A DNA stretch of 64,000 nt from Rhodovulum euryhalinum (GTDB lineage Bacteria; Pseudomonadota; Alphaproteobacteria; Rhodobacterales; Rhodobacteraceae), in assembly GCF_004342445.1 (NCBI RefSeq), contig NZ_SLWW01000001.1, positions 124,001-188,000 on the forward strand. The letters are read 5' to 3'. Under the pieces are notes generated by a model. That model did not search any database, was not told where the DNA came from, and saw only the letters and a list, made by a program, of their open reading frames with translations. The translations under genes and the position numbers were made by a program. Every line of letters begins with the position of its first letter. Position 1 is the stretch's first letter. Positions 50,400-61,959 of the stretch are shown here, piece by piece.

Positions 50400-51158
50400 T
50401 CAGGACCGGTCGGCGGACGGAACGGCCGTGCGGCAGAGTGCGATCAGCCCGGCGCGCGCCGCTGCGGGGGCCAGGATCAGCGCCGCCTCGCCCCGGGCCT
50501 CGATCCGGACGAGAATCAGGCCCCCGTCCCCGGCCGGGCCAAGCAAGGTGCAGGACGCGCCGCCGGCCGCAACCTGCCCAAGCCCCGCCGCCCCGCCGCC
50601 GGCAAGCCCCTCGAGGCGGGTGACAAGGGCCGGATCGCCGGTGCGCGCGACGATCTCGCCGCCCGCAAGGCGCAGACCGGCGACGGCGTGGCCCAGCCCG
50701 GCCGTGACCGGGTCAATTTCTGCCGCCTCGTCCGTGCCGACGGCTGTGATCGCGGCGGCCAGGGTCTCGACCGAACAGCCGATCTCGGTCGGATCGACCC
50801 GGTGATGCGGCCGCATGGCGTCGATGCTGATCTCTCGGGCTTGGTCGAGGAAGGTGCGGAAGGGGCCGGTGAAGGCGGCGATCAGGCGCGCAGCGGGGTC
50901 GTCCTCTGCATCCGCGACGCCGGAGACCGGGCCGCCGGGCGCCTCGAGATGCACGACCCGCCGCCCCACGACGACCAGCAGCGCCTGTTCGCCGCGTTCA
51001 TTCGTCAGGACCATATCGCGCGGCAGGATCGTTTCCTCGATCTCGGCCAGCAGCGCGGCGATGATCCCCTCGGTAGCGCCCGTGACGATCTGATCGTCTT
51101 CGGCATCGGCGCCCTTGAGCTTGGCAAGCTTGCTGTTCAGCCGGTCCAGCCCGCCCAT
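50400..51158 (-). CDS. Unknown protein with Roadblock-like C-terminal half, last gene of the kinase/dynamin cluster
   Basis: 252 residues. The N-terminal part is helical with EETILPRDMVLTNERGEQALLVVV; the C-terminal part (from about residue 160) alternates strands and helices in a Roadblock/LC7-like manner (VAGLRLAGGEIVARTGDPAL, then GGLILVRIEARGEAALILA). Roadblock proteins regulate small GTPases, which would suit the neighbouring dynamins. No enzyme motif is seen; the fold is a visual impression. The start follows the upstream gene's TGA by one base. Confidence 0.6.
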   Translation of the reverse strand: MGGLDRLNSKLAKLKGADAEDDQIVTGATEGIIAALLAEIEETILPRDMVLTNERGEQALLVVVGRRVVHLEAPGGPVSGVADAEDDPAARLIAAFTGPFRTFLDQAREISIDAMRPHHRVDPTEIGCSVETLAAAITAVGTDEAAEIDPVTAGLGHAVAGLRLAGGEIVARTGDPALVTRLEGLAGGGAAGLGQVAAGGASCTLLGPAGDGGLILVRIEARGEAALILAPAAARAGLIALCRTAVPSADRS

Positions 51159-51159
51159 G

Positions 51160-51576
51160 TCACTGGCCCCGGTCGGCAGTGGCGGCATGCTCCGTCACAC
51201 CCGGCAGGATCGCGTCGATCCCGCCGCGCAGCAGAGCCAGTGCCACCTCGGGGTCGGCGGCGGGGTCCAGCACGGCGCAAAGCGCCTCGTCGGACGCCGT
51301 TGGCGCGCGCAGGAAAACCTCGATCCCGCCGCCCTGCACGACCACCGCTTCGCCCGGCGGCAGATCGGCCGCCAGCGCCATGCGCGCGGCCTCGGCCACC
51401 GGCCCGGTCATCAGGCGCACGGCGCGCAGGCACAGTGCATCCAGCGCCTCCTGCGGCGGGCGCGGAAGGTCGGAATCGCTGCACAGGACCAGACGGGCCG
51501 AGAGGTCGGCATAAACCAGCGACCGGCATCCGGGGATCGATCCGCGCAAACTCTGTATTCGCCTGGAAAGCGCCAT
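51160..51576 (-). CDS. Small Roadblock/LC7-like protein of the kinase/dynamin cluster
   Basis: 138 residues from the ATG at 51576 (longer starts at 51624/51630 exist). The order strand-strand-helix-strand-strand-helix is suggested by GCRSLVYADLSARLVLCSDSD, LDALCLRAVRLM, GEAVVVQGGGIEVFLRAP and VALALLRGGIDAIL, the pattern of Roadblock/LC7 proteins such as MglB. It probably partners a GTPase. Fold assignment is from visual pattern only. One base separates its stop from the next start. Confidence 0.55.
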   Translation of the reverse strand: MALSRRIQSLRGSIPGCRSLVYADLSARLVLCSDSDLPRPPQEALDALCLRAVRLMTGPVAEAARMALAADLPPGEAVVVQGGGIEVFLRAPTASDEALCAVLDPAADPEVALALLRGGIDAILPGVTEHAATADRGQ

Positions 51577-51699
51577 CGCGCGCAGTCTAGTCGATATTCT
51601 GCCGCCTTCCACCGGCAAATGCATCGCCACGCCGCCCGGATGGCGAAAAGGGATCCGGCGTATGGACGATCCCGGCCGCGATGGACGCGGAACCTTCCG

Positions 51700-52641
51700 T
51701 CAGGCCAGGCCGAAGCCCCGGGATGGCTCGCTGCCCGGACGTACCGAACGGCCGCGCTCGCGGTCGATGGTCACCCGGCGCGGGCGTGCACCGTCATCGG
51801 TTCCGGCCGCGGGGTCCTGTGTCAGGGGTGGCGCCTCCGGGAACGCGGCGGCGCGCGCCGCGTTGTCAGCCGCTTGGGGCGTGGCGCCCTGAAATCCGTC
51901 CAGCAACCCGATGAAGTGCTGGCTGAAGGCCTCGGCCCCGCTCGCGGTCCAGCGATCCCAGTCGTCGCGCCCGGCGACGGCCTCGGTCAGCGAAATCGGC
52001 AGGATCGCCGAGAACAGCCCCGCGGCCTCGCGCACGACCCGCTTGAGCACGCGCGCCCGGTCTTCGGCGGTCACCAGCTTGTCCGCCCGCGTCAGCAGCA
52101 GGAGACTCGATTGCGCAAGGCGGCCAGAGAGTTCCTCCCAGACCGCGGCCTCGCTCTGGCGCCAGGCCTGGGTGGCGTGGGTACACCAGATCACCCCGTC
52201 CGCCTGCCCGATCACGCCCTCCCAGACGCCCGAATCCATGTTCGGGTCCGAGATGCCGGGCATGTCGATCAGGTCGCAAAGCGTCAACAGGTCGGCCTCG
52301 ACGAAGAGTTGCACGAGCCTTGTGTCGGCGGGCGTGACTTCGGTCAGCGCCTCGATGTCCAGCGGATGGATGCGGCCGTCGTGATCCTCGCGCCAGCCCT
52401 GCCCGGTGCCATGCGAGATGCGCACCGGCGGCAGCTGGGTGGCGGTGACCTTGACCGGCAGGGGGCTCTGGCCGATCAGCAGGTTCGACAGCGTGCTCTT
52501 GCCCGCGCTGAATTCGCCCATCAGGGCGATGCAGGGCTTGCGCGGGGCGGCCCCGGGCGCGGGGGCGGCAAGCGGCACGTCATCGAGGGGCGGAAAGCCG
52601 TCTTCGAACCGGGAATATGCGTCGTGATGGGTCTCGGTCAT
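51700..52641 (-). CDS. Dynamin-like GTPase (small form)
   Basis: 313 residues. G1 is MGEFSAGKSTLSNLL (about 41-55), G2 threonine in VTATQLPPV, G3 LIDMPGISD (about 127) and G4 TRADKLV (about 185). This is the P-loop of dynamin-like/YjeQ-free bacterial dynamins, without a long stalk; the C-terminal 60 residues are a basic, disordered tail. Cytoplasmic or membrane-peripheral. It follows the large dynamin by 26 bases. Confidence 0.82.
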   Translation of the reverse strand: MTETHHDAYSRFEDGFPPLDDVPLAAPAPGAAPRKPCIALMGEFSAGKSTLSNLLIGQSPLPVKVTATQLPPVRISHGTGQGWREDHDGRIHPLDIEALTEVTPADTRLVQLFVEADLLTLCDLIDMPGISDPNMDSGVWEGVIGQADGVIWCTHATQAWRQSEAAVWEELSGRLAQSSLLLLTRADKLVTAEDRARVLKRVVREAAGLFSAILPISLTEAVAGRDDWDRWTASGAEAFSQHFIGLLDGFQGATPQAADNAARAAAFPEAPPLTQDPAAGTDDGARPRRVTIDRERGRSVRPGSEPSRGFGLA

Positions 52642-52667
52642 CGTCTCCAGCCTCTTGCTTCCCGGGG

Positions 52668-54719
52668 TCAGGCCGCTTCCTGGCGCATCGTGGCGACCGC
52701 GCTCTCGATCTGCCGCAGCCGGTCGGCCCGCTCCTGATAGCCAAGCGCAACGCCCAGATCCTCGGCCGTGGGCGCAGTCTTTTCGGCAAGTGCGGTCACG
52801 ATCTCGCGCTGCTCGTCAAGGAATGTGGCCAGCGTCCGCAGCAGGTCGGCGCGGATCGTCTGGGCGTGGTCCCGACTCAGTTCGTCGAGAATGGGCGATG
52901 TCTCTTCGCGGATCATCTTGTAGAACTCGGCCGCGAAGCTGCGATACCCCCTGCGGCGCAGCCACCAGCGGCGCCACCACGTGCCCTTGACGTCCAGCGC
53001 GATCGTCTGCGCGATGGCGACCGGCGGGTTCAGCCGCGGCGGCGCCGGCGGCTCGATCGCCAGGGCCTCGTTCAGTCCGAACGCGGCACGATAGGACGCG
53101 GCGACCTCGGCGGCGGTGGCATCCAGGATCGCCCGCGCGTCACCCTGCATCCGCTTGCCGAAGACCTGGCAGGCCGAGCGCAACAGGATACGCAGCCCCG
53201 TCGGCTCGTAGGACCAGACCGTGCCCTCGCCGTATTTCTCGAGGTGCTCGATCAGCGCCGCGGTGGCACGGTCGAGGAAGTTGTGATGCGACCGGTCGAG
53301 ACGGACGCAGAACGCCTCGTGCTGGGCGGCGAAGGCGGTTTCCAGCGCGGCGGTCGCACGCTGCTCGATCTGGGCAAGGTCCCGGGTGATCCGGGCCGTA
53401 TCCACCTGAACCGCATGCCCGCCCGTCACCGCGAGCCCGATCGAGCGCTGGGCCGCGGTCACGCCGCGGGCGAGGTTGCCGACGCTGCGGGCGATCCGGT
53501 CGATCGCCTCGCCGCCGACGCCCTCGGCCACCCGCTCGCCAAGCACACGGTAGAGCGCCGGTATGCCCGACAGCGTCCAGGCGTCCTCGGCCGTCGGAGT
53601 CTCGTTGCCTGCCAGCATGACCAGCGCCCGGCGGCTTGCCTCGGTCATTCCGGCCAGGGGGCCTTCCAGCGCGTGCTGGCCCCAGAAGGCGCTGCCGAAC
53701 AGGATGGGGGCGTCGGCCGGGCCCTCGTGCTTTTTCAAAGTGGCGCGGATCGAGTCGCGAATCTCGGCGGTCTGGCTGGCCGGGTCCGACAACTCGTCGA
53801 TCCGGTTCACGAAGATCACGGCCTCGCGCGCCTTCACCGCCGAGATCAGCCGGATCAGCGCCATGTCGACGGTCGACAGCGCCTGGTGGGCGGACAGAAC
53901 CAGCACGCAGAGCCTGCTGTCGCGAATCGCGCCGATGGTGATCTGCTCGCGCATCAGGAACGTGTCGTTCACGCCCGGCGTGTCGCGCAGGCACAGCTTG
54001 AACGGCACGTTGGCGTGGTCGACGAACAGGTCGGCCGACTTGGTGATGTCGGCGAATCGGCCCCGCATGTCGAAGGGTTCCCCCTCGTCATCATCGAGAT
54101 CGTCACCAAGGCAGACATAGCGTTCCACCAGCGCCTCGTCGAAGACGCCGTAGCGGTGTTCCTGCCCGAGCAACAGCTCGAACCGGCGACCGAGCCTTCC
54201 CTTGGATTTCTCGCGCATCCGCTCGATCTGGCGGCGGACCTTCTCCAATTCCTCTTCGGCGCCTGCGCGACTGGCTAGTTCCCCCATGCGGCCGCCCTTC
54301 TCGATCAGGCGATCCCATTCCTGCGGGTCGAAGAAGCGGAAGCTGGCACCTGCGGCGGCGGTCGCCCAGGACGGTGCAAGGTGGATCGAGGTCACCACCG
54401 AGGTCCAGGGATTGACGTCGGCGGGCAACAGGCCCGGCCAGCCGGTCATGGCATTGATCAGCGAGGTCTTGCCCGCCTTGACCTGGCCGATGAAGGTGAT
54501 CGAGGGCTCGACAAGGTCAAGCTGGGCCGACAGCCGGCCCGCGCCCTTGGCAACGGTCGCATCGCCCAGTTCGCCCAGGTCGGCCAGCGCGCGCCGCATC
54601 TGGTCCATGCGGTCCACGAAACCGGCAAACCCGTCCATGCCCAGCGCCAGAAGCCCCGGATTGGCGGTCCGGGGGCGGGCCGCTTCGATTGCGGGTGCTG
54701 CGCGATCGTCCAGCGTCAC
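52668..54719 (-). CDS. Large bacterial dynamin-like GTPase
   Basis: 683 residues from the GTG at 54719 (GGGGAG eight bases upstream). GTPase domain: G1 FIGQVKAGKTSLINAM (77-92), G3 LRDTPGVND, G4 FVNRIDEL (NRID rather than TKxD). Coiled stalk regions follow. Near residues 581-593 the Trp/Arg-rich stretch WWRRWWLRRRGYR looks like a membrane-insertion amphipathic element, and a helical C-terminus ends the protein. It probably self-assembles on a membrane. Its GTG lies 153 bases after the upstream GTPase stop. Confidence 0.85.
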   Translation of the reverse strand: MTLDDRAAPAIEAARPRTANPGLLALGMDGFAGFVDRMDQMRRALADLGELGDATVAKGAGRLSAQLDLVEPSITFIGQVKAGKTSLINAMTGWPGLLPADVNPWTSVVTSIHLAPSWATAAAGASFRFFDPQEWDRLIEKGGRMGELASRAGAEEELEKVRRQIERMREKSKGRLGRRFELLLGQEHRYGVFDEALVERYVCLGDDLDDDEGEPFDMRGRFADITKSADLFVDHANVPFKLCLRDTPGVNDTFLMREQITIGAIRDSRLCVLVLSAHQALSTVDMALIRLISAVKAREAVIFVNRIDELSDPASQTAEIRDSIRATLKKHEGPADAPILFGSAFWGQHALEGPLAGMTEASRRALVMLAGNETPTAEDAWTLSGIPALYRVLGERVAEGVGGEAIDRIARSVGNLARGVTAAQRSIGLAVTGGHAVQVDTARITRDLAQIEQRATAALETAFAAQHEAFCVRLDRSHHNFLDRATAALIEHLEKYGEGTVWSYEPTGLRILLRSACQVFGKRMQGDARAILDATAAEVAASYRAAFGLNEALAIEPPAPPRLNPPVAIAQTIALDVKGTWWRRWWLRRRGYRSFAAEFYKMIREETSPILDELSRDHAQTIRADLLRTLATFLDEQREIVTALAEKTAPTAEDLGVALGYQERADRLRQIESAVATMRQEAA

Positions 54720-54872
54720 AGTGCCACTCCCCTCTTGGCTGATCGAAAACCGGCCGCTCCCGACCGGGGCCAGCTGCGACCGGGCCGGTTGTCGCGGCCG
54801 ACGAAACAATTTTCCCGAGAAAGATGTCCTGAGCGTGGCACTCCCATGTCGATCCCTTGGCGGTCGCCGCGC

Positions 54873-56027
54873 TCAGGCCGCAAGCCGCGCGTCAAAGCCG
54901 CGCCGAAGCTGCAACAGCAGGGTCACGGCATCGGCCGCGGCGTTCTCGTCACCCTCGAGTCCGAGCAGCAACAGCATCTCGTTGGCTTCCAGCACATCCT
55001 CGGCCAGATCGCCGGCCACGCCGGCACCCTCGACGATCTCGGAAAGCGACTCGGCCGTGCGGGCGCAAAGCGACAACAGCGCCGAGACCGCGGCCGGGTC
55101 GTTGGCGCCGATCTCGTCGGGGAAATCGCCGCGACATGCGTCGAGCAGGTGAAGCGCCTGCGCAGAGACGGCGACTTCGGCCTGCGGCACCGGCGGGGCG
55201 GGGGGTGTCGGGTGACTCTGCGGCAGGGGTGCCGGGGCCTGCGCCCGTTGCGAAAGGTCGGGTTCGGGCTGTGGGACCTTGGCAGCGACGGCTTCTGCAG
55301 GTTCGGCCAGGATTGCGTCCGATGGCAGGTCGTGACGGCGCAGGAAAAGGCTCGCCGCGTCCAGATCGGCGCTGCGCCCCTGCTCGATCATGCGGTCCAG
55401 CGCCTCGAACAGCGCCGCCGCCCCGCTTCGGGCATGCAGCGCCGCATCGACCACCCTGTTGCCCTCCCGCGCCGCAGCGGCCTGGCGGGTGGCAATCGGC
55501 AGCAGGCTGTGGAACTCGACCTCGACCACATCGCGCAGATCGTCGAGCCGCTCGTCCAGCACGCCAAGACGCATCAGGTCGTCGGCCTTGGTCAGCACGA
55601 GAAAGGCATGGTCCTTGAGATTGTCCGGCACCCGCGACCAGACCTTCGCTTCGTCATGGGTGAAGCCCTGGGTGCACCACAGCAGAATGTCGGGCGCGGT
55701 CTCCTCGATGGCGACCGCGCGGCCGATGGCGTCGGCCGCGGCCGGCAGGTCCAGGTCGACCACCACGAGATTGCCCAGCAGCGTCGACAATGTTTCGACC
55801 GGAGGCCCGCCCCGGGACGGCCGCGTTGCCGGACCCCGATCCCCGGCGAGCAGGTGCACCAGGTCCGATTTGCCGCTCCCTGCGGGACCGGTCACCACCA
55901 GCCGGACCGGCTTGCGCAACCGGTCAAGCAGGCGCTGGCCATGCGCGCGCACCCGTTCGGGCAGGTGCCCGGACGCGACGGCCCGGTCAAGCCGTGCCAG
56001 CGTGTCCCGTTCGAAGATCGCGTTCAT
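54873..56027 (-). CDS. P-loop GTPase with helical C-terminal domain
   Basis: 384 residues. G1 is VVTGPAGSGKSDLV near residues 44-57; G4 is LVLTKADDL (TKxD). The G3 position reads VVDLDLPAA without the DxxG glycine, so hydrolysis may be impaired. A proline/glutamine-rich linker (about 255-290) leads to a helical C-terminal domain (from about 290). The start overlaps the PP2C stop (ATGA). Possibly a regulatory partner of the large dynamin. Confidence 0.78.
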   Translation of the reverse strand: MNAIFERDTLARLDRAVASGHLPERVRAHGQRLLDRLRKPVRLVVTGPAGSGKSDLVHLLAGDRGPATRPSRGGPPVETLSTLLGNLVVVDLDLPAAADAIGRAVAIEETAPDILLWCTQGFTHDEAKVWSRVPDNLKDHAFLVLTKADDLMRLGVLDERLDDLRDVVEVEFHSLLPIATRQAAAAREGNRVVDAALHARSGAAALFEALDRMIEQGRSADLDAASLFLRRHDLPSDAILAEPAEAVAAKVPQPEPDLSQRAQAPAPLPQSHPTPPAPPVPQAEVAVSAQALHLLDACRGDFPDEIGANDPAAVSALLSLCARTAESLSEIVEGAGVAGDLAEDVLEANEMLLLLGLEGDENAAADAVTLLLQLRRGFDARLAA

Positions 56028-56980
56028 TGCACTCGCTTTCCAAAGCTGAAAAGGGACCGCAGGGCGACCGGCAGCGTCCAGCGCGGGCCACCTGTTCCGC
56101 GGCGCGCGGCGGCAAGTTCGGGCCGTCTGCGGGCCCGCTCGGCGGGGACCGTGGCGACCGGGCGGCGTGGCTGGACCATGGGCTGCCAGCCATGGGCGAC
56201 CACGCGGATCACGCTGAAGCAGACATTGTCCTGTTCGGGATCGGCCCGCGCCTCGAGTTCGGCGAGCAGCGCATCGGCGATCTCGGCGGCGCTGCGGCGG
56301 CGATGCTCTGCCAGGATCACCCGCAGCCGGTCCCGGTCGATCGAGTCGAGCCCGTCGCTTGCGGCGAGGATGATGTCGCCCACGGCAAGTTCGAGCGGCC
56401 GGTCGGGGCAGTCGATCTGCCGGATCTCGGCCCCGGTCAGCGCCGAGGTCAGGCAATGGCGGTCGGGATGGGCCTGCGCCTCTTCGGCGCTCAGCATACC
56501 GACACGAACCATCCCGTCGATCTGCGGCGCAAGCGAGTGGTCCTCGTTGATCTGGTGCAACGCGCCGTCGCGGTAAAGCAGCAGCGGCGAATCCCCGACC
56601 GAGATCCAGAACAGCCTGTCCCGCGCCACCGCAAGCGCCACCAGCGTGGTGCCCATGCCGCCGGTCTCGGCATGGCCGCGGACATGTTCCGCGATGCAGC
56701 CATTTGCCTCGCGCGCGGCCGTCCTGAGGATTCCGGGCGCATAGCGGACAAAGCGATCCAGGTCGTCGCTTTGCAGCTTCAACTCGCTGAACACCTCGGT
56801 CACGGCGATCCGGCTGGCCACGTCGCCTGCCGCATGCCCGCCCATGCCGTCGCCCAGCACCGCAAGGCCGATCTCGCCGCCGATCGCGAAATCGGCGATG
56901 ATCGCGTCTTCCTGATGCTCGCGCCGACCCTGGCCGATGCCGGTGGCGGCGTCGATCCTGATGTCAGTTGCCGTCATCAT
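56024..56980 (-). CDS. PP2C-type Ser/Thr protein phosphatase
   Basis: 318 residues. The PP2C metal motifs are REHQEDAIIAD (about 20-30), VLGDGMGGHAAGDVAS (about 42-57), GTTLVALAV, and LAASDGLDS with EQDNVCFSVI towards the end. It reverses Ser/Thr phosphorylation. It overlaps the FHA gene by 17 bases and its stop overlaps the next GTPase (ATGA), so it is translationally coupled to both. The kinase of the same cluster is its likely counterpart. Confidence 0.93.
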   Translation of the reverse strand: MMTATDIRIDAATGIGQGRREHQEDAIIADFAIGGEIGLAVLGDGMGGHAAGDVASRIAVTEVFSELKLQSDDLDRFVRYAPGILRTAAREANGCIAEHVRGHAETGGMGTTLVALAVARDRLFWISVGDSPLLLYRDGALHQINEDHSLAPQIDGMVRVGMLSAEEAQAHPDRHCLTSALTGAEIRQIDCPDRPLELAVGDIILAASDGLDSIDRDRLRVILAEHRRRSAAEIADALLAELEARADPEQDNVCFSVIRVVAHGWQPMVQPRRPVATVPAERARRRPELAAARRGTGGPRWTLPVALRSLFSFGKRVQ

Positions 56981-58007
56981 CGCGCCGGTCCGTCGCCCAG
57001 GTGAAATCGGGCCCGCAGAACGCCACGAAGCGCAACGTCGTCTCGCCGATGCGGATCACGTCGCCACCCGCCAGTTCTTCGGTGCTCAGCAGGGGCTGGC
57101 CGTTCAGCCGCACGATGTTCACCTTGCCGCCCGAGCCGAGGAAGAACTTGGCCTGCTCATCGTCATAGGCCAGCAGCGCATGGCCCGAGCGCGAGATCGA
57201 ACTGTCCCCGAAATCAAGGCGAACGGTCTGATCGGCACCGCGCCCGATCTGCGACACACCGTGACCCAGGGCGAAATGCGCGCCGCGGCCGGGGCCGTCG
57301 ACGACAACGAGCCAGCCGACGGGAAAATCCGGCGCACCGTCTGCGGCCGGGGCGTCGGCCTCGTCGCGGGCGAAGGGATCGGCGGCGGGATCGGCGGGCT
57401 GGCCGAAGCCCAGCAGCCGGGTCTTGGTCCGCCCGGCCCGGGCGCCAGCCCGGCCCACGGCGGGCGGCGGCACCTCGAAGGCGGCCATGTCCTCGGCACG
57501 GGGTTCGGTCGGCGGCATCGCGGAGCGCAGCGGCGGCGCCACGGTCGGTGCGGGGTCGGGGCCCGACATGGCAGCGGTGGCAGGCGCGGCATCCGCATGG
57601 GGCAAGACCGCCTCGCGCCGCTCTGTGTCTTCCGCGATCGGCGGCCGCTGGCGGCGATCGCCGCCGGGGAACAGCACGGGCCGACCATCATCCAGCGCGG
57701 GCGCGTCAGCGCTGGGGCAAAGCGGCGCCTGCGCGGTGGTGCCCGCAGCACAAGCCGCAGAGGCGAAGCCATCCGCCTCGAACGGCGCGCCGGCAACCTC
57801 GTCCGCGGGATCGTCCTCCCACGCGTCGGGCGGCTGACCGACTCCGTCGCTATCCCGGAACGGCGCGGGGGGGGTGCGCATCGGGTCTGCGACCGGGCCG
57901 GACACCGGATCGGACGCCCGGTGCCGCGCCGGGGGGAACGGTGCGACATAATCGTTGAAATCGTCCTCGACGGGTCTGTCGCCGCTCTTGCGTCTCAGGA
58001 ATTTCAT
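56964..58007 (-). CDS. FHA-domain protein
   Basis: 347 residues. Residues 1-230 are disordered, rich in P, A and D; the C-terminal FHA domain (about 240-335) contains GVSQIGRGADQTVRLDF and DSSISRSGHALL with the Ser/His/Arg core that binds phosphothreonine, and VRLNGQPLL. It should recognise targets phosphorylated by the cluster's kinase. The stop overlaps the PP2C gene. Confidence 0.9.
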   Translation of the reverse strand: MKFLRRKSGDRPVEDDFNDYVAPFPPARHRASDPVSGPVADPMRTPPAPFRDSDGVGQPPDAWEDDPADEVAGAPFEADGFASAACAAGTTAQAPLCPSADAPALDDGRPVLFPGGDRRQRPPIAEDTERREAVLPHADAAPATAAMSGPDPAPTVAPPLRSAMPPTEPRAEDMAAFEVPPPAVGRAGARAGRTKTRLLGFGQPADPAADPFARDEADAPAADGAPDFPVGWLVVVDGPGRGAHFALGHGVSQIGRGADQTVRLDFGDSSISRSGHALLAYDDEQAKFFLGSGGKVNIVRLNGQPLLSTEELAGGDVIRIGETTLRFVAFCGPDFTWATDRRDDDGN

Positions 58008-58055
58008 GGCTCTGCCTTCCGTGCTGAACCTTGCTGCGGGTTTCGACCGTCCAGG

Positions 58056-59360
58056 TTACGGCCGTGCGGTGAATCGCCGGGCAAGCCCCATGAACAGGCC
58101 GCCGCGGCCGGGACGGGGCCGCCGGCTGCGCAACTTGGGCCGGCGCGGACAGACCGCGCCATCGGCCTCTGGCGTATGGTCGGGACAGGACGGCCCGGGC
58201 ACCGGGACGGCGGTGGCCTGATCGTCGTCCTCGTCGTCATAAAGCGACCGCCAGGCGAAGGCGGGCTTGCGCTCGGGTGGTTTCGGCGCCTCGGGCAGGC
58301 GCGCGCGCACCTCGTGTTCGGACCGCTGGCGCGCCTCCATCACCGCGCGGTTCGTCTCTTCGACCAGCCGCGAGATCGACACCATCATGTCCTCGTCCGC
58401 TTGCAGGACGCGGCCCTCCGCGGCCTGCCGCGGGCCGGTCTCGATCATCGCAAGCCATTCATGCGCGGATTGCGGCCGCTCTTTCGGCACCACGTTCAGC
58501 GCCTTGTCGATCGCCCCGAGGAACGCGGACGTATAGCCCGGGATCCGGCCGCGCAGCGGCTGGCAGGGGTCGGGTTCGTTCGCGGCCAGCGCGGCCATGC
58601 GCTGCTGGCTGTCGGGTGGCGCCTCGTCGGTGATGAGGTGGTAGAACGTCGCGGCCAGCGCATAGAGATCGCTGGGCGGGCCCTGCCGGATGCCGGCGAC
58701 ATAGAATTCCTGCGGCGAGTAGCCGTCCTTGACCACCTGCAGCCGCGACAGGACCCGGCTGCTGCGGGTGGCCTTTTCGCGCGCGGCCCCGAAATCGATC
58801 AGCACCGGGTTGCCGGTCAGGTCGATCAGGATGTTGTCGGGCGAGATATCGCGGTGCAGCAGGCTTTGGTCATGCACGAAGGCGACCGCGTCCAGGACCT
58901 TGACCAGGATCTCGCGGATCGCGTCGGGCGAGGGCGTCTCGCGCGGATCCTCGATGATCTCGAGCAGGCTTTTGCCCTCGATATAGTCCAGCGCCATGTA
59001 GGCGGTCGTGTTGTCCGAGAACACCTGATGGACACCGACGATGCCGGGATGGTTCAGCCGGGCAAGCCGCCGCGCCTCCTCGATGAAGAGCTGGACGATC
59101 GAGTGGAATTCCTGGGTATGGCTGCGCGAACGGGCGCGCACGTCGCAGCCGGTGCGCAGGCACAGCGACTCGGGAAAGCACTCCTTGATGACGACGGTCC
59201 GGTCCAGGCTGTCGCGCGCCAGGTAGGTCAGGCCGAATCCGCCCGAGTTCAGGAACCGCTCGATCCTGTACTGGCCGTGCAAAAGCTCGGTTCCGGGCTG
59301 CAACTCCTCCACCGGGCCCTCCGGTGTCAGGGTCGTGTTGAAATCGGGTGCTGCGGTCAT
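58056..59360 (-). CDS. Hanks-type Ser/Thr protein kinase, first gene of the dynamin cluster
   Basis: 434 residues from the ATG at 59360; an ATG at 59435 with GGGGAA upstream is an alternative. Kinase signatures are complete: LNSGGFGLTYLARD glycine loop, VVIKECFP (catalytic Lys), LLHRDISPDNILI (HRD) and LIDFGAA (DFG). The C-terminal 110 residues are charged, basic and not membrane-spanning. It presumably phosphorylates cluster proteins, read by FHA and reversed by PP2C. The next gene follows after 48 bases. Confidence 0.93.
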   Translation of the reverse strand: MTAAPDFNTTLTPEGPVEELQPGTELLHGQYRIERFLNSGGFGLTYLARDSLDRTVVIKECFPESLCLRTGCDVRARSRSHTQEFHSIVQLFIEEARRLARLNHPGIVGVHQVFSDNTTAYMALDYIEGKSLLEIIEDPRETPSPDAIREILVKVLDAVAFVHDQSLLHRDISPDNILIDLTGNPVLIDFGAAREKATRSSRVLSRLQVVKDGYSPQEFYVAGIRQGPPSDLYALAATFYHLITDEAPPDSQQRMAALAANEPDPCQPLRGRIPGYTSAFLGAIDKALNVVPKERPQSAHEWLAMIETGPRQAAEGRVLQADEDMMVSISRLVEETNRAVMEARQRSEHEVRARLPEAPKPPERKPAFAWRSLYDDEDDDQATAVPVPGPSCPDHTPEADGAVCPRRPKLRSRRPRPGRGGLFMGLARRFTARP

Positions 59361-59732: not shown

Positions 59733-60494
59733 GTGATCCCCCTGCCCGAGACCACCTTGCGCAGCCCGCATCCGGCCCGTGTCGCGCCGGTGCGGCCGCT
59801 GCGCGTGGCAAGCTACAACATCCGCAAGGCCGTCGGGCTCGACTGGAAGCGCGACGCAGGGCGCGTACTCGACGTCATCAACGAGATCGGCGCCGACGCG
59901 GTCGTGCTGCAAGAGGCCGACAAGCGGCTGGGCGACCGCCCCGCGGCGCTGCCGCGAGCGCTGATCGAACGCGAGACCGATTTCGCCGTCGCCGACCTCG
60001 CCCCGAACGCGGTCAGCCTCGGCTGGCACGGCAACGCGGTGCTGCTGCGCCGCAGCACCATGGTCGAGGCGGCCGAACGGCTGACCCTGCCGGGTCTGGA
60101 ACCGCGCGGCGCGGTAATGGTCCGGATCGGACGGGGCGACGGGCGGTCGATCACCCTGGTCGGTGTCCACCTCGCGCTGATGCGGCGCTGGCGGCGGCGC
60201 CAGCTTCAGGCGATCGGCGCCCGGTTCTGCGACACCGAAAGCGCGCGCACCGTGATCCTGGGCGATTTCAACGAATGGTCCGAGGACCGCGGCCTCGAGC
60301 CGCTGGCCGGACGCTTCCGCATCGTCGCCCCGGGCAAGACCTTCCATGCCCGCCGCCCCCGCGCCGGGCTCGACCGGATCGCCCATGGAAGCGGCCTGGC
60401 GCTGACCGCGGCGGGGGTGCATGAAAGCCCCCGCGCACGGATCACCTCCGACCACCTGCCGATCTGGGCCGAGTTCGGCTTCGTGCAGGGCTGA
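59733..60494 (+). CDS. Endonuclease/exonuclease/phosphatase (EEP) family protein
   Basis: About 253 residues from a GTG at 59733. EEP motifs: LRVASYNIRKAVGLD (Asn), DAVVLQEADKRLG (catalytic Glu), VGVHLALMRR, ILGDFNEWSE (Asp/Asn) and ITSDHLPIWAEF (Asp-His). The family hydrolyses phosphodiesters in nucleic acids or phospholipids. Next gene is a phospholipase-D-like synthase, so a lipid role is possible. Confidence 0.85.
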   Translation: MIPLPETTLRSPHPARVAPVRPLRVASYNIRKAVGLDWKRDAGRVLDVINEIGADAVVLQEADKRLGDRPAALPRALIERETDFAVADLAPNAVSLGWHGNAVLLRRSTMVEAAERLTLPGLEPRGAVMVRIGRGDGRSITLVGVHLALMRRWRRRQLQAIGARFCDTESARTVILGDFNEWSEDRGLEPLAGRFRIVAPGKTFHARRPRAGLDRIAHGSGLALTAAGVHESPRARITSDHLPIWAEFGFVQG

Positions 60495-60537
60495 GCGCGG
60501 GCTTGCGATTCGGCGCGGCGCGGGCGAGCATCTTCCC

Positions 60538-61959
60538 ATGTTGCAGATCGTGCTTGCCGCCACGCTGCTTGCGCTCCAGGCCGGGGCGGTCTGGGCGGCG
60601 TTGCGCGCAATCCGGAACGCCCGCACGCCCCAGGGCGCGGTCGGCTGGGTGGTGTTCCTGATCGCGGCGCCCTACCTCGCGCTGCCGGTCTTCCTGTTTC
60701 TCGGCCATTCCCGGCTGCCGGGCTATGTCACCGCGCGCCGGTCCTCGCACGCCTCGATCGCGACCCAGCCGGATTTCGATCCGGGCTGGCGGACCGATTC
60801 GACCCGGCTGCCCGACCGGTTGGGCCGCACGCTGGCCGGGTTCGAACGGATGGCAGGCCTGCCTGCGATGTCGGGCAACGCGTTACGCCTGCTGATCGAC
60901 GGCCCGGCGACCTTCGAGGCGATCTTCGCCGCGATCGAGCGGGCCGAGCGCTATGTGCTGGTCCAGACCTACATCCTGCGCGACGACGACACCGGACGCG
61001 CGCTGCAGCGCCGCCTGATCGACCGGGCGCGCGCGGGCTGCACGGTGCGGCTGCTCTATGATGCCATCGGCAGCCACCGCCTGCCTGACAGCTACCTCGC
61101 GCCCCTGCGAGAGGCAGGCGTGATCGCCGCCGACTTCCATTCCTTGCGCAAGCCGCACAGCCGGTTCCAGATCAATTTCCGCAGCCACCGCAAGATCGTG
61201 GTCGTGGACGGGCACGCGGCGTTCCTTGGCGGGCACAATGTGGGCGATGAATACCTGGGCCGCGACGCCCGAATCGGCCGCTGGCGCGACACCCATCTGG
61301 TGGTGTCCGGTCCGGCCGTGGCGCAACTGCAACTGATCTTTGCCGAGGACTGGGCCTGGGCCACCGAAGAGCGGCTGGACCTCGCCTGGCACCCCGCCCC
61401 CGCCGCCGCGAACATGGATGCGCTGATCGTGGCGCCTGGCCCGGCCGACGTGCTGGAAACCGGCAGCCTGTATTTCTGCAACGCGATCCATGCCGCGCAG
61501 GACCGGGTCTGGATCGCCTCGCCCTACTTCGTGCCCGACCGCGACATCCTCACCGCGCTGTCGCTGGCGGCGCTTCGCGGCGTGGACGTGCGCATCCTGG
61601 TGGCGGCCCGGCGCGACAACCTTTTCGTCTGGCTGGCCGCCTTCGCCTATTTCGACGAGATGCTGGACGCGGGCGTGCGCATCTTCCGCTACACCGACGG
61701 GTTCATGCACCAGAAAGCGCTGGTGGTGGACGACGCCTTCGCCTCGGTGGGCACGCTGAACCTCGACAACCGGTCGTGCCGGCTGAACTTCGAGGTGACG
61801 GCGCTGGTCTTCGACGACGGCTTCGCCCGGACGGTGGCGGCCATGCTGGACGAGGATTTCACCCGCAGCCAGGCCTATGCCACGCGGCTCGCCGAGGCGC
61901 CGGGGCTCTTGCGGCGGAACGGCGCGCGCGTGGCCCGCCTCATGGCCCCGATCCTCTGA
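60538..61959 (+). CDS. Cardiolipin-synthase-like phospholipase D protein
   Basis: 473 residues. Two N-terminal membrane helices (LAATLLALQAGAVWAAL, VVFLIAAPYLALPVFLFLG) and two HKD motifs: HRKIVVVDGHAAFLGGHN (about 220) and MHQKALVVDDAFASVGTLN (about 385). Architecture matches bacterial cardiolipin synthases (ClsA-like). It condenses phosphatidylglycerol at the inner membrane. It follows the EEP gene by 43 bases. Confidence 0.92.
   Translation: MLQIVLAATLLALQAGAVWAALRAIRNARTPQGAVGWVVFLIAAPYLALPVFLFLGHSRLPGYVTARRSSHASIATQPDFDPGWRTDSTRLPDRLGRTLAGFERMAGLPAMSGNALRLLIDGPATFEAIFAAIERAERYVLVQTYILRDDDTGRALQRRLIDRARAGCTVRLLYDAIGSHRLPDSYLAPLREAGVIAADFHSLRKPHSRFQINFRSHRKIVVVDGHAAFLGGHNVGDEYLGRDARIGRWRDTHLVVSGPAVAQLQLIFAEDWAWATEERLDLAWHPAPAAANMDALIVAPGPADVLETGSLYFCNAIHAAQDRVWIASPYFVPDRDILTALSLAALRGVDVRILVAARRDNLFVWLAAFAYFDEMLDAGVRIFRYTDGFMHQKALVVDDAFASVGTLNLDNRSCRLNFEVTALVFDDGFARTVAAMLDEDFTRSQAYATRLAEAPGLLRRNGARVARLMAPIL

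Follow-up and report, generated by a model that had tools for sequence, protein, structure and literature searches.

Eight adjacent genes on the minus strand of Rhodovulum euryhalinum contig NZ_SLWW01000001.1 bring together a bacterial dynamin pair, likely regulators of the roadblock type and a probable phospho-switch composed of a kinase, an FHA protein and a phosphatase. They occupy positions 50400..59360 of a stretch of 64,000 nucleotides (124,001 to 188,000 of the contig), which was analysed as a whole and is called the window here. This is a real and widely kept module whose anatomy is well supported; its mechanism can be proposed. We put at about even the chance that the cluster is a phospho-switched dynamin machine with roadblock-type control. 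Bacterial dynamins are known and, as far as we are aware, the means of switching them on is largely open. Here likely regulators, a reversible phospho-switch and roadblock proteins, lie inside a dynamin operon that is complete and ordered at 61 loci of one family, and the control of bacterial dynamins becomes directly testable. The combination of dynamin, roadblock protein and phospho-switch seems to be undescribed. An initial annotation, made from the sequence alone, knew of no described system with this content, and neither a roadblock-dynamin nor a kinase-FHA-PP2C-dynamin operon was found among the papers listed in searches of the open-licence literature, judged by title and start of abstract.

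Eight minus-strand open reading frames (ORFs) were called in the window in the order K-F-P-A-D-B-R-S. Their coordinates confirm the close packing noted in the initial annotation. K and F are separated by 48 bases, F and P overlap by 17 bases, and P and A overlap by 4 (ATGA). The largest gap, of 153 bases, lies between A and D; D and B are 26 bases apart, B and R 123 bases counted from the ATG of R (69 if R begins at GTG 51630), and R and S a single base. Pfam and NCBIfam give names to K, P, D and B and leave A, R and S unnamed. The features are as follows.

58056..59360, minus strand: K, Hanks-type Ser/Thr kinase of 434 aa, start codon ATG at 59360, HRD and DFG motifs kept
56964..58007, minus strand: F, N-terminus long and rich in Pro and Ala, FHA domain at the C-terminus (aa 235-328), from weaker profile matches and the core motif
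57405..57425, minus strand: KTRLLGF motif of F, directly before the FHA domain, candidate phospho-threonine site
56024..56980, minus strand: P, PP2C-type phosphatase (DGMGGH), from profile and motif
54873..56027, minus strand: A, degenerate GTPase and paralogue of B, from motif loss and hhalign comparison with B
52668..54719, minus strand: D, dynamin-like large GTPase of 683 aa, start codon GTG, from Dynamin_N and PDB relatives
52950..52979, minus strand: WWRRWWLRRR, aromatic and basic residues in D that may touch the membrane
51700..52641, minus strand: B, dynamin-type G domain, 313 aa, from Dynamin_N and P-loop
51160..51576, minus strand: R, predicted roadblock/LC7-fold protein, 138 aa
50400..51158, minus strand: S, 252 aa, C-terminal half weakly roadblock-like

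Distribution and layers of the cluster

Profile mapping found the cluster complete and in the same order at 61 of 114 loci. Twelve loci carried part of it (seven of these end at a contig end, and L105 and L172 among the 12 are two-dynamin loci), while 41 showed another arrangement or none. The 114 loci consist of the window, sets of 60 and 51 loci, L153 and L163; they cover 100 of the 102 genomes that carry D (all but G364 and G389). Four Rhodovulum loci, three loci from plasmids, and L229/L230 stand outside the count. In a test of 51 loci, Rhodovulum loci included, mean pairwise identity ranged from 0.22 for S to 0.50 for D. Distances between orthologues were correlated from gene to gene (0.56-0.85); when D was permuted 300 times against the seven remaining genes, the maximum was 0.18. 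Because so many loci are intact and the gene distances are correlated, the association is more than chance. A single stand-alone machine inherited as a unit had been suggested from the sequence, and the intact loci agree with co-inheritance, whose loss was not seen. No ninth co-travelling gene was found, the commonest other cluster being present at 17 of 65 loci.

D was found in 102 of 394 Rhodobacteraceae genomes (101 of 393 genera). Of 61 relatives, 13 carry S. Eleven of the 13 fall within the genus, represented by 16 genomes with the host's own included, so presence is patchy even there. In four Rhodovulum species the best-segment identity of D was 84-86%. Among 388 genomes of the phylum the D profile matched eight from Rhodobacteraceae and one other alphaproteobacterial genome at E 1e-20 or better, and a search of 289 genomes of the class with the single D sequence gave two matches, both in Rhodobacteraceae. 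At L229, the locus of that other alphaproteobacterial genome, a D-B pair was present and roadblock proteins, K, F and P were not detected.

The genes are not kept equally. D-based counts use 113 loci, since L196 (G361, the weakest match) has no D by profile, and genes were counted at any place in a stretch of up to 20 kb, on either strand. D was followed by an A- or B-type GTPase at 112 loci. At 103 loci R, S or a member of a second roadblock family, r, was present (R or r accounts for 102 of these, S by itself for one), a count made at low score limits (R 20, S 18 and r 25 bits); many of the loci counted had also served to train the R and S profiles. Four of the ten loci lacking all three lie at a contig end. 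At least one of K, F and P was present at 76 loci. Other arrangements occur as well. In some loci an r gene accompanies D-B, and there are two-dynamin loci, an example being D-B-R-S-D-A-K-F-P from a Ruegeria replicon. In a further arrangement (L192 and L211 by Pfam, L213 by eye) a dual-specificity phosphatase comes with R, S and an ABC-like ATPase that matches below Pfam cut-offs, then D and B, and last a ferredoxin/FAD/globin oxidoreductase. These counts and arrangements indicate that the D-B pair is the core, that roadblock proteins almost always accompany it and that the phospho-module is a frequent third layer. The earlier picture of one phospho-regulated machine holds in that the kinase module is joined to the dynamins, but a D-B core with its roadblock partner also exists without that module.

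GTPases and roadblock proteins

D matched Dynamin_N above the Pfam cut-off (8e-12). The G1, G3 and G4 motif patterns, P-loop and DxPG included, were kept in all 57 D orthologues. The solved structures nearest to its profile were those of the Campylobacter jejuni dynamin-like protein (DLP; 5owv, 1e-15) and the Nostoc bacterial dynamin-like protein (BDLP; 2j68, 6e-11). W582, which sits in a WW..WW stretch, was at least 90% conserved in 30 D sequences. B matched Dynamin_N (1e-10) and MMR_HSR1 and gave no Ras or Arf row in Pfam; its orthologues kept the P-loop in 57/57 cases and DxPG in 55/57. With 313 aa it is too short to hold a dynamin trunk.

A had neither a Dynamin_N match of its own nor any other GTPase model above the Pfam cut-offs, and is placed by its kinship to B (hhalign probability 99.96, E 7e-38). 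Its P-loop pattern was kept in 43 of 57 orthologues (one of the 14 others, at L079, is a cut ORF) and DxPG in none. This loss of DxPG, and of the P-loop in some orthologues, makes A probably a non-switching partner of B, as judged from sequence. Three dynamin-like GTPases had been reported in the initial annotation. D and B bear the description by their Dynamin_N matches; A does so through B, and its degenerate state had been missed. Although B and D both match Dynamin_N, hhalign found no similarity of A or B to D (probability <1).

R matched no Pfam or NCBIfam family, the Robl_LC7 model included. Its predicted structure has a roadblock fold along the entire chain, and by that fold R is firmly placed as a putative roadblock-type GTPase regulator. 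S likewise matched no family in these collections (a single insignificant Pfam row, E 0.15); it may be of roadblock type, less firmly than R, given a C-terminal half that looks roadblock-like. The two small proteins had been noticed at the outset, but their roadblock type, firm for R and tentative for S, was overlooked. Alignments for R excluded one of 60 sequences (L109) and those for S two of 59 (L108, L102). Hhalign of R against the halves of S, and of one S half against the other, gave nothing (probabilities <1), and a PDB sequence search with both profiles returned only weak unrelated rows (phospholipase A2, 0.016; EspG5, 0.013).

R is connected to Robl_LC7 only via intermediates that it has in common with the r family. 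Outside Rhodobacteraceae the R and r profiles converge on the same proteins, for example L149 3177-3581 (2e-11 and 6e-12), and some proteins matched by both have Pfam Robl_LC7 proteins and an Arf/Ras-like GTPase in their vicinity. The r profile also matched L151 9050-9409, a protein that resembles LAMTOR5 (1e-4) and Robl_LC7 (8e-4) in Pfam, both below cut-off. r genes stand beside GTPase genes in 12 loci, and in four loci r is fused to the C-terminus of B (L189 7762-9024, L191 10985-12388, L194 7022-8443 and L195 7235-8743). These natural fusions connect roadblock evolution to the dynamin superfamily. At L147 (9742-11831), also outside the family, a fusion of an ABC ATPase with a DSP phosphatase domain adjoins an R relative; L148 looks alike by eye.

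The phosphorylation module

K matched Pkinase (6e-29, Pfam), and its orthologues kept the HRD pattern in 52/53 and DFG in 53/53 cases. P matched PP2C_2 (1e-10) and, under that model's cut-off, the Stp1-type PP2C (1e-42); DG[MVLI]GG was present in all 56 orthologues. PF00498, the FHA model, matched nowhere in the window. F is nevertheless an FHA protein, judging from weaker matches and its IGR...SxSRxxH core. The best NCBIfam match was OdhI (3e-7), followed by FhaB (4e-7), both FHA proteins and both below NCBIfam cut-offs, OdhI far below; Yop-YscD_cpl scored 8e-7 and 29.7 bits against a curated cut-off of 33.2. A strict pattern for the core, [IV]GR...SxSRxxH, was found in 44 of 56 F orthologues.

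A second conserved element, [RK]TRhhGF, precedes the FHA domain in 52 of the 56. It was absent from L052 (same genus), L091, L084 (TRILGF with a different preceding residue) and L067 (a cut ORF). By analogy with GarA/OdhI, phosphorylation of the threonine of KTRLLGF may let the FHA domain of F itself bind it. In that switch, too, a conserved threonine motif stands before the FHA domain. The motif of GarA/OdhI is ETTS, whereas that of F is KTRLLGF and the partner genes of F encode GTPases.

Proposed mechanism, alternatives and neighbouring genes

The ordered loci, the correlated evolution, the predicted fold of R, the r-B fusions and the nearness of D to a membrane-tethering dynamin pair are the reasons for reading the cluster as a machine. 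We infer the complexes, phosphosites, direction of control, membrane action and physiological role as follows. D and its constant neighbour B would be the core that does the mechanical work, in the manner of bacterial dynamin pairs already known, and A, the degenerate copy of B, would probably be its non-switching partner. R, probably with S, would act as a roadblock-type regulator or scaffold that governs B, in its nucleotide state or its place on the membrane, and D by way of B. K would phosphorylate threonines, the simplest candidates being those of the GTPases and of the KTRLLGF motif of F; F would read this mark through its FHA domain or be locked by it, and P would reset it. The output might be gated remodelling or maintenance of the inner membrane. 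The initial annotation had offered membrane remodelling, vesiculation or phage defence as candidate roles.

Parts of this scheme have known counterparts. PMC6104087 states that bacterial dynamins mostly come as pairs within operons and that the Campylobacter pair Cj-DLP1/Cj-DLP2 tethers membranes; its main text contains neither the word roadblock nor the word kinase. The likeness lies in two adjacent dynamin-type genes and in D being closest to the Campylobacter DLP among solved structures, but here B is a short G-domain protein and six genes for roadblock and phospho-control are added. MglA/MglB and Rag/Ragulator are roadblock-GTPase systems, and Rag GTPase pairs are asymmetric. As in these, one or more roadblock-fold proteins accompany GTPases, one of which is degenerate here; in contrast, the GTPases are of dynamin type, there is no Ras-like small GTPase partner, and a dynamin and a kinase/FHA/PP2C trio are attached. 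Tentatively, a Ragulator-like layer can be imagined in which a roadblock assembly (R with S, or r next to B or fused with it) serves as scaffold for an asymmetric pair of active B and degenerate A and so licenses the dynamin, with the kinase/FHA/phosphatase switch above. Roadblock proteins elsewhere are tied to Ras-like GTPases, and their control would, if this is true, reach the dynamin superfamily.

An unlikely alternative is anti-phage defence, with the kinase arm sensing infection and freeing a dynamin-type effector that changes the membrane. Such an effector has been proposed for dynamin-based defence, and the patchy distribution and plasmid copies of the cluster would fit. PADLOC models of LeoA matched D (1e-10) and of LeoBC matched B (2e-5), weak and partial matches for which library cut-offs were not shown. 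Eleos/LeoABC resembles the cluster in its two dynamin-type proteins, and we know of no roadblock protein, kinase, FHA protein or PP2C in it. PADLOC also matched K to PD-T4-6 (2e-45) and MAD6 (2e-40), but these matches are probably generic to the kinase domain. Among 87 of 119 immediate neighbours, a set that mostly leaves out the longest and may hold spurious ORFs, the 25 of 94 Pfam families listed included transporters, histidine kinases, MreB and families of metabolism, and none for defence or mobility recurred consistently; PADLOC matches to the 87 were scattered over 14 families of 1-4 members (best mad3, 7e-32, two members). A single gene order across 61 loci also seems steadier than is usual for defence loci. 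D had no match in 50,697 phage records, which counts against defence and on which a phage-borne origin was rejected.

Control of polarity or cell division, in which an MglA/MglB-like roadblock-GTPase switch positions D at poles or septum, appears improbable to us. The GTPase partners are of dynamin rather than MglA/Ras type, linkage to MreB is limited to eight of 65 loci, and D went undetected in roughly three quarters of the genomes, so it is not generally required for division. We are equally doubtful of osmotic or envelope-stress signalling in which the GTPases serve as switches only, with no membrane remodelling. B lacks the length for a trunk, and some loci have a gene nearby for a periplasmic PBP-OmpA protein or, as judged by eye, one of the LysM-plus-binding-protein kind; against this, D is as long as a full dynamin and its profile best matches dynamin-like proteins.

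An orphan control module of type VI secretion (T6SS), suggested by the likeness of the kinase, PP2C and FHA trio to PpkA, PppA and Fha and by a weak link to the sheath gene (34/102 against 68/292 genomes, odds ratio 1.65, p 0.05, uncorrected for relatedness), is very improbable and largely refuted, because VipB is absent from 68 of the 102 D carriers and the only VipB of this genome lies on another contig, C9, near a differently built FHA protein. On these grounds a T6SS origin was ruled out. VipB was found in 102 of the 394 Rhodobacteraceae genomes, 34 of them shared with D. The statement that no T6SS gene is present proved right for the sheath gene in the window, and occurrence only together with T6SS, which would have spoken against a stand-alone system, was not seen. 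On C9 (84931-90631) the sheath gene stands about 5 kb from its own N-terminal FHA protein.

The flanks of the cluster vary by lineage. In the 65 loci compared, ABC-type ATPases occurred at 17, a cluster named by eye that may lump paralogues, and an MreB-type gene at eight. The latter, assigned by Pfam, follows S in L060-L065, L067 and L078, and seven of the eight also have an MreC-like gene (by eye). The periplasmic PBP-OmpA protein is encoded at six loci (L072, L077, L087, L096, L172 and L205), and LysM-plus-binding-protein genes, named by eye, come after P in L107 and L113; these neighbours could possibly provide envelope input. Copies of the cluster lie on 12 plasmids of Leisingera that measure 33-179 kb, on five replicons of Ruegeria (389-811 kb) and on one of Rhodobacter (861 kb); three of these contexts were examined. 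In the window itself, a divergent gene upstream of K (60421-61959, plus strand) resembles by eye a cardiolipin synthase/PLD enzyme and is preceded by a gene of exonuclease/phosphatase type, also named by eye.

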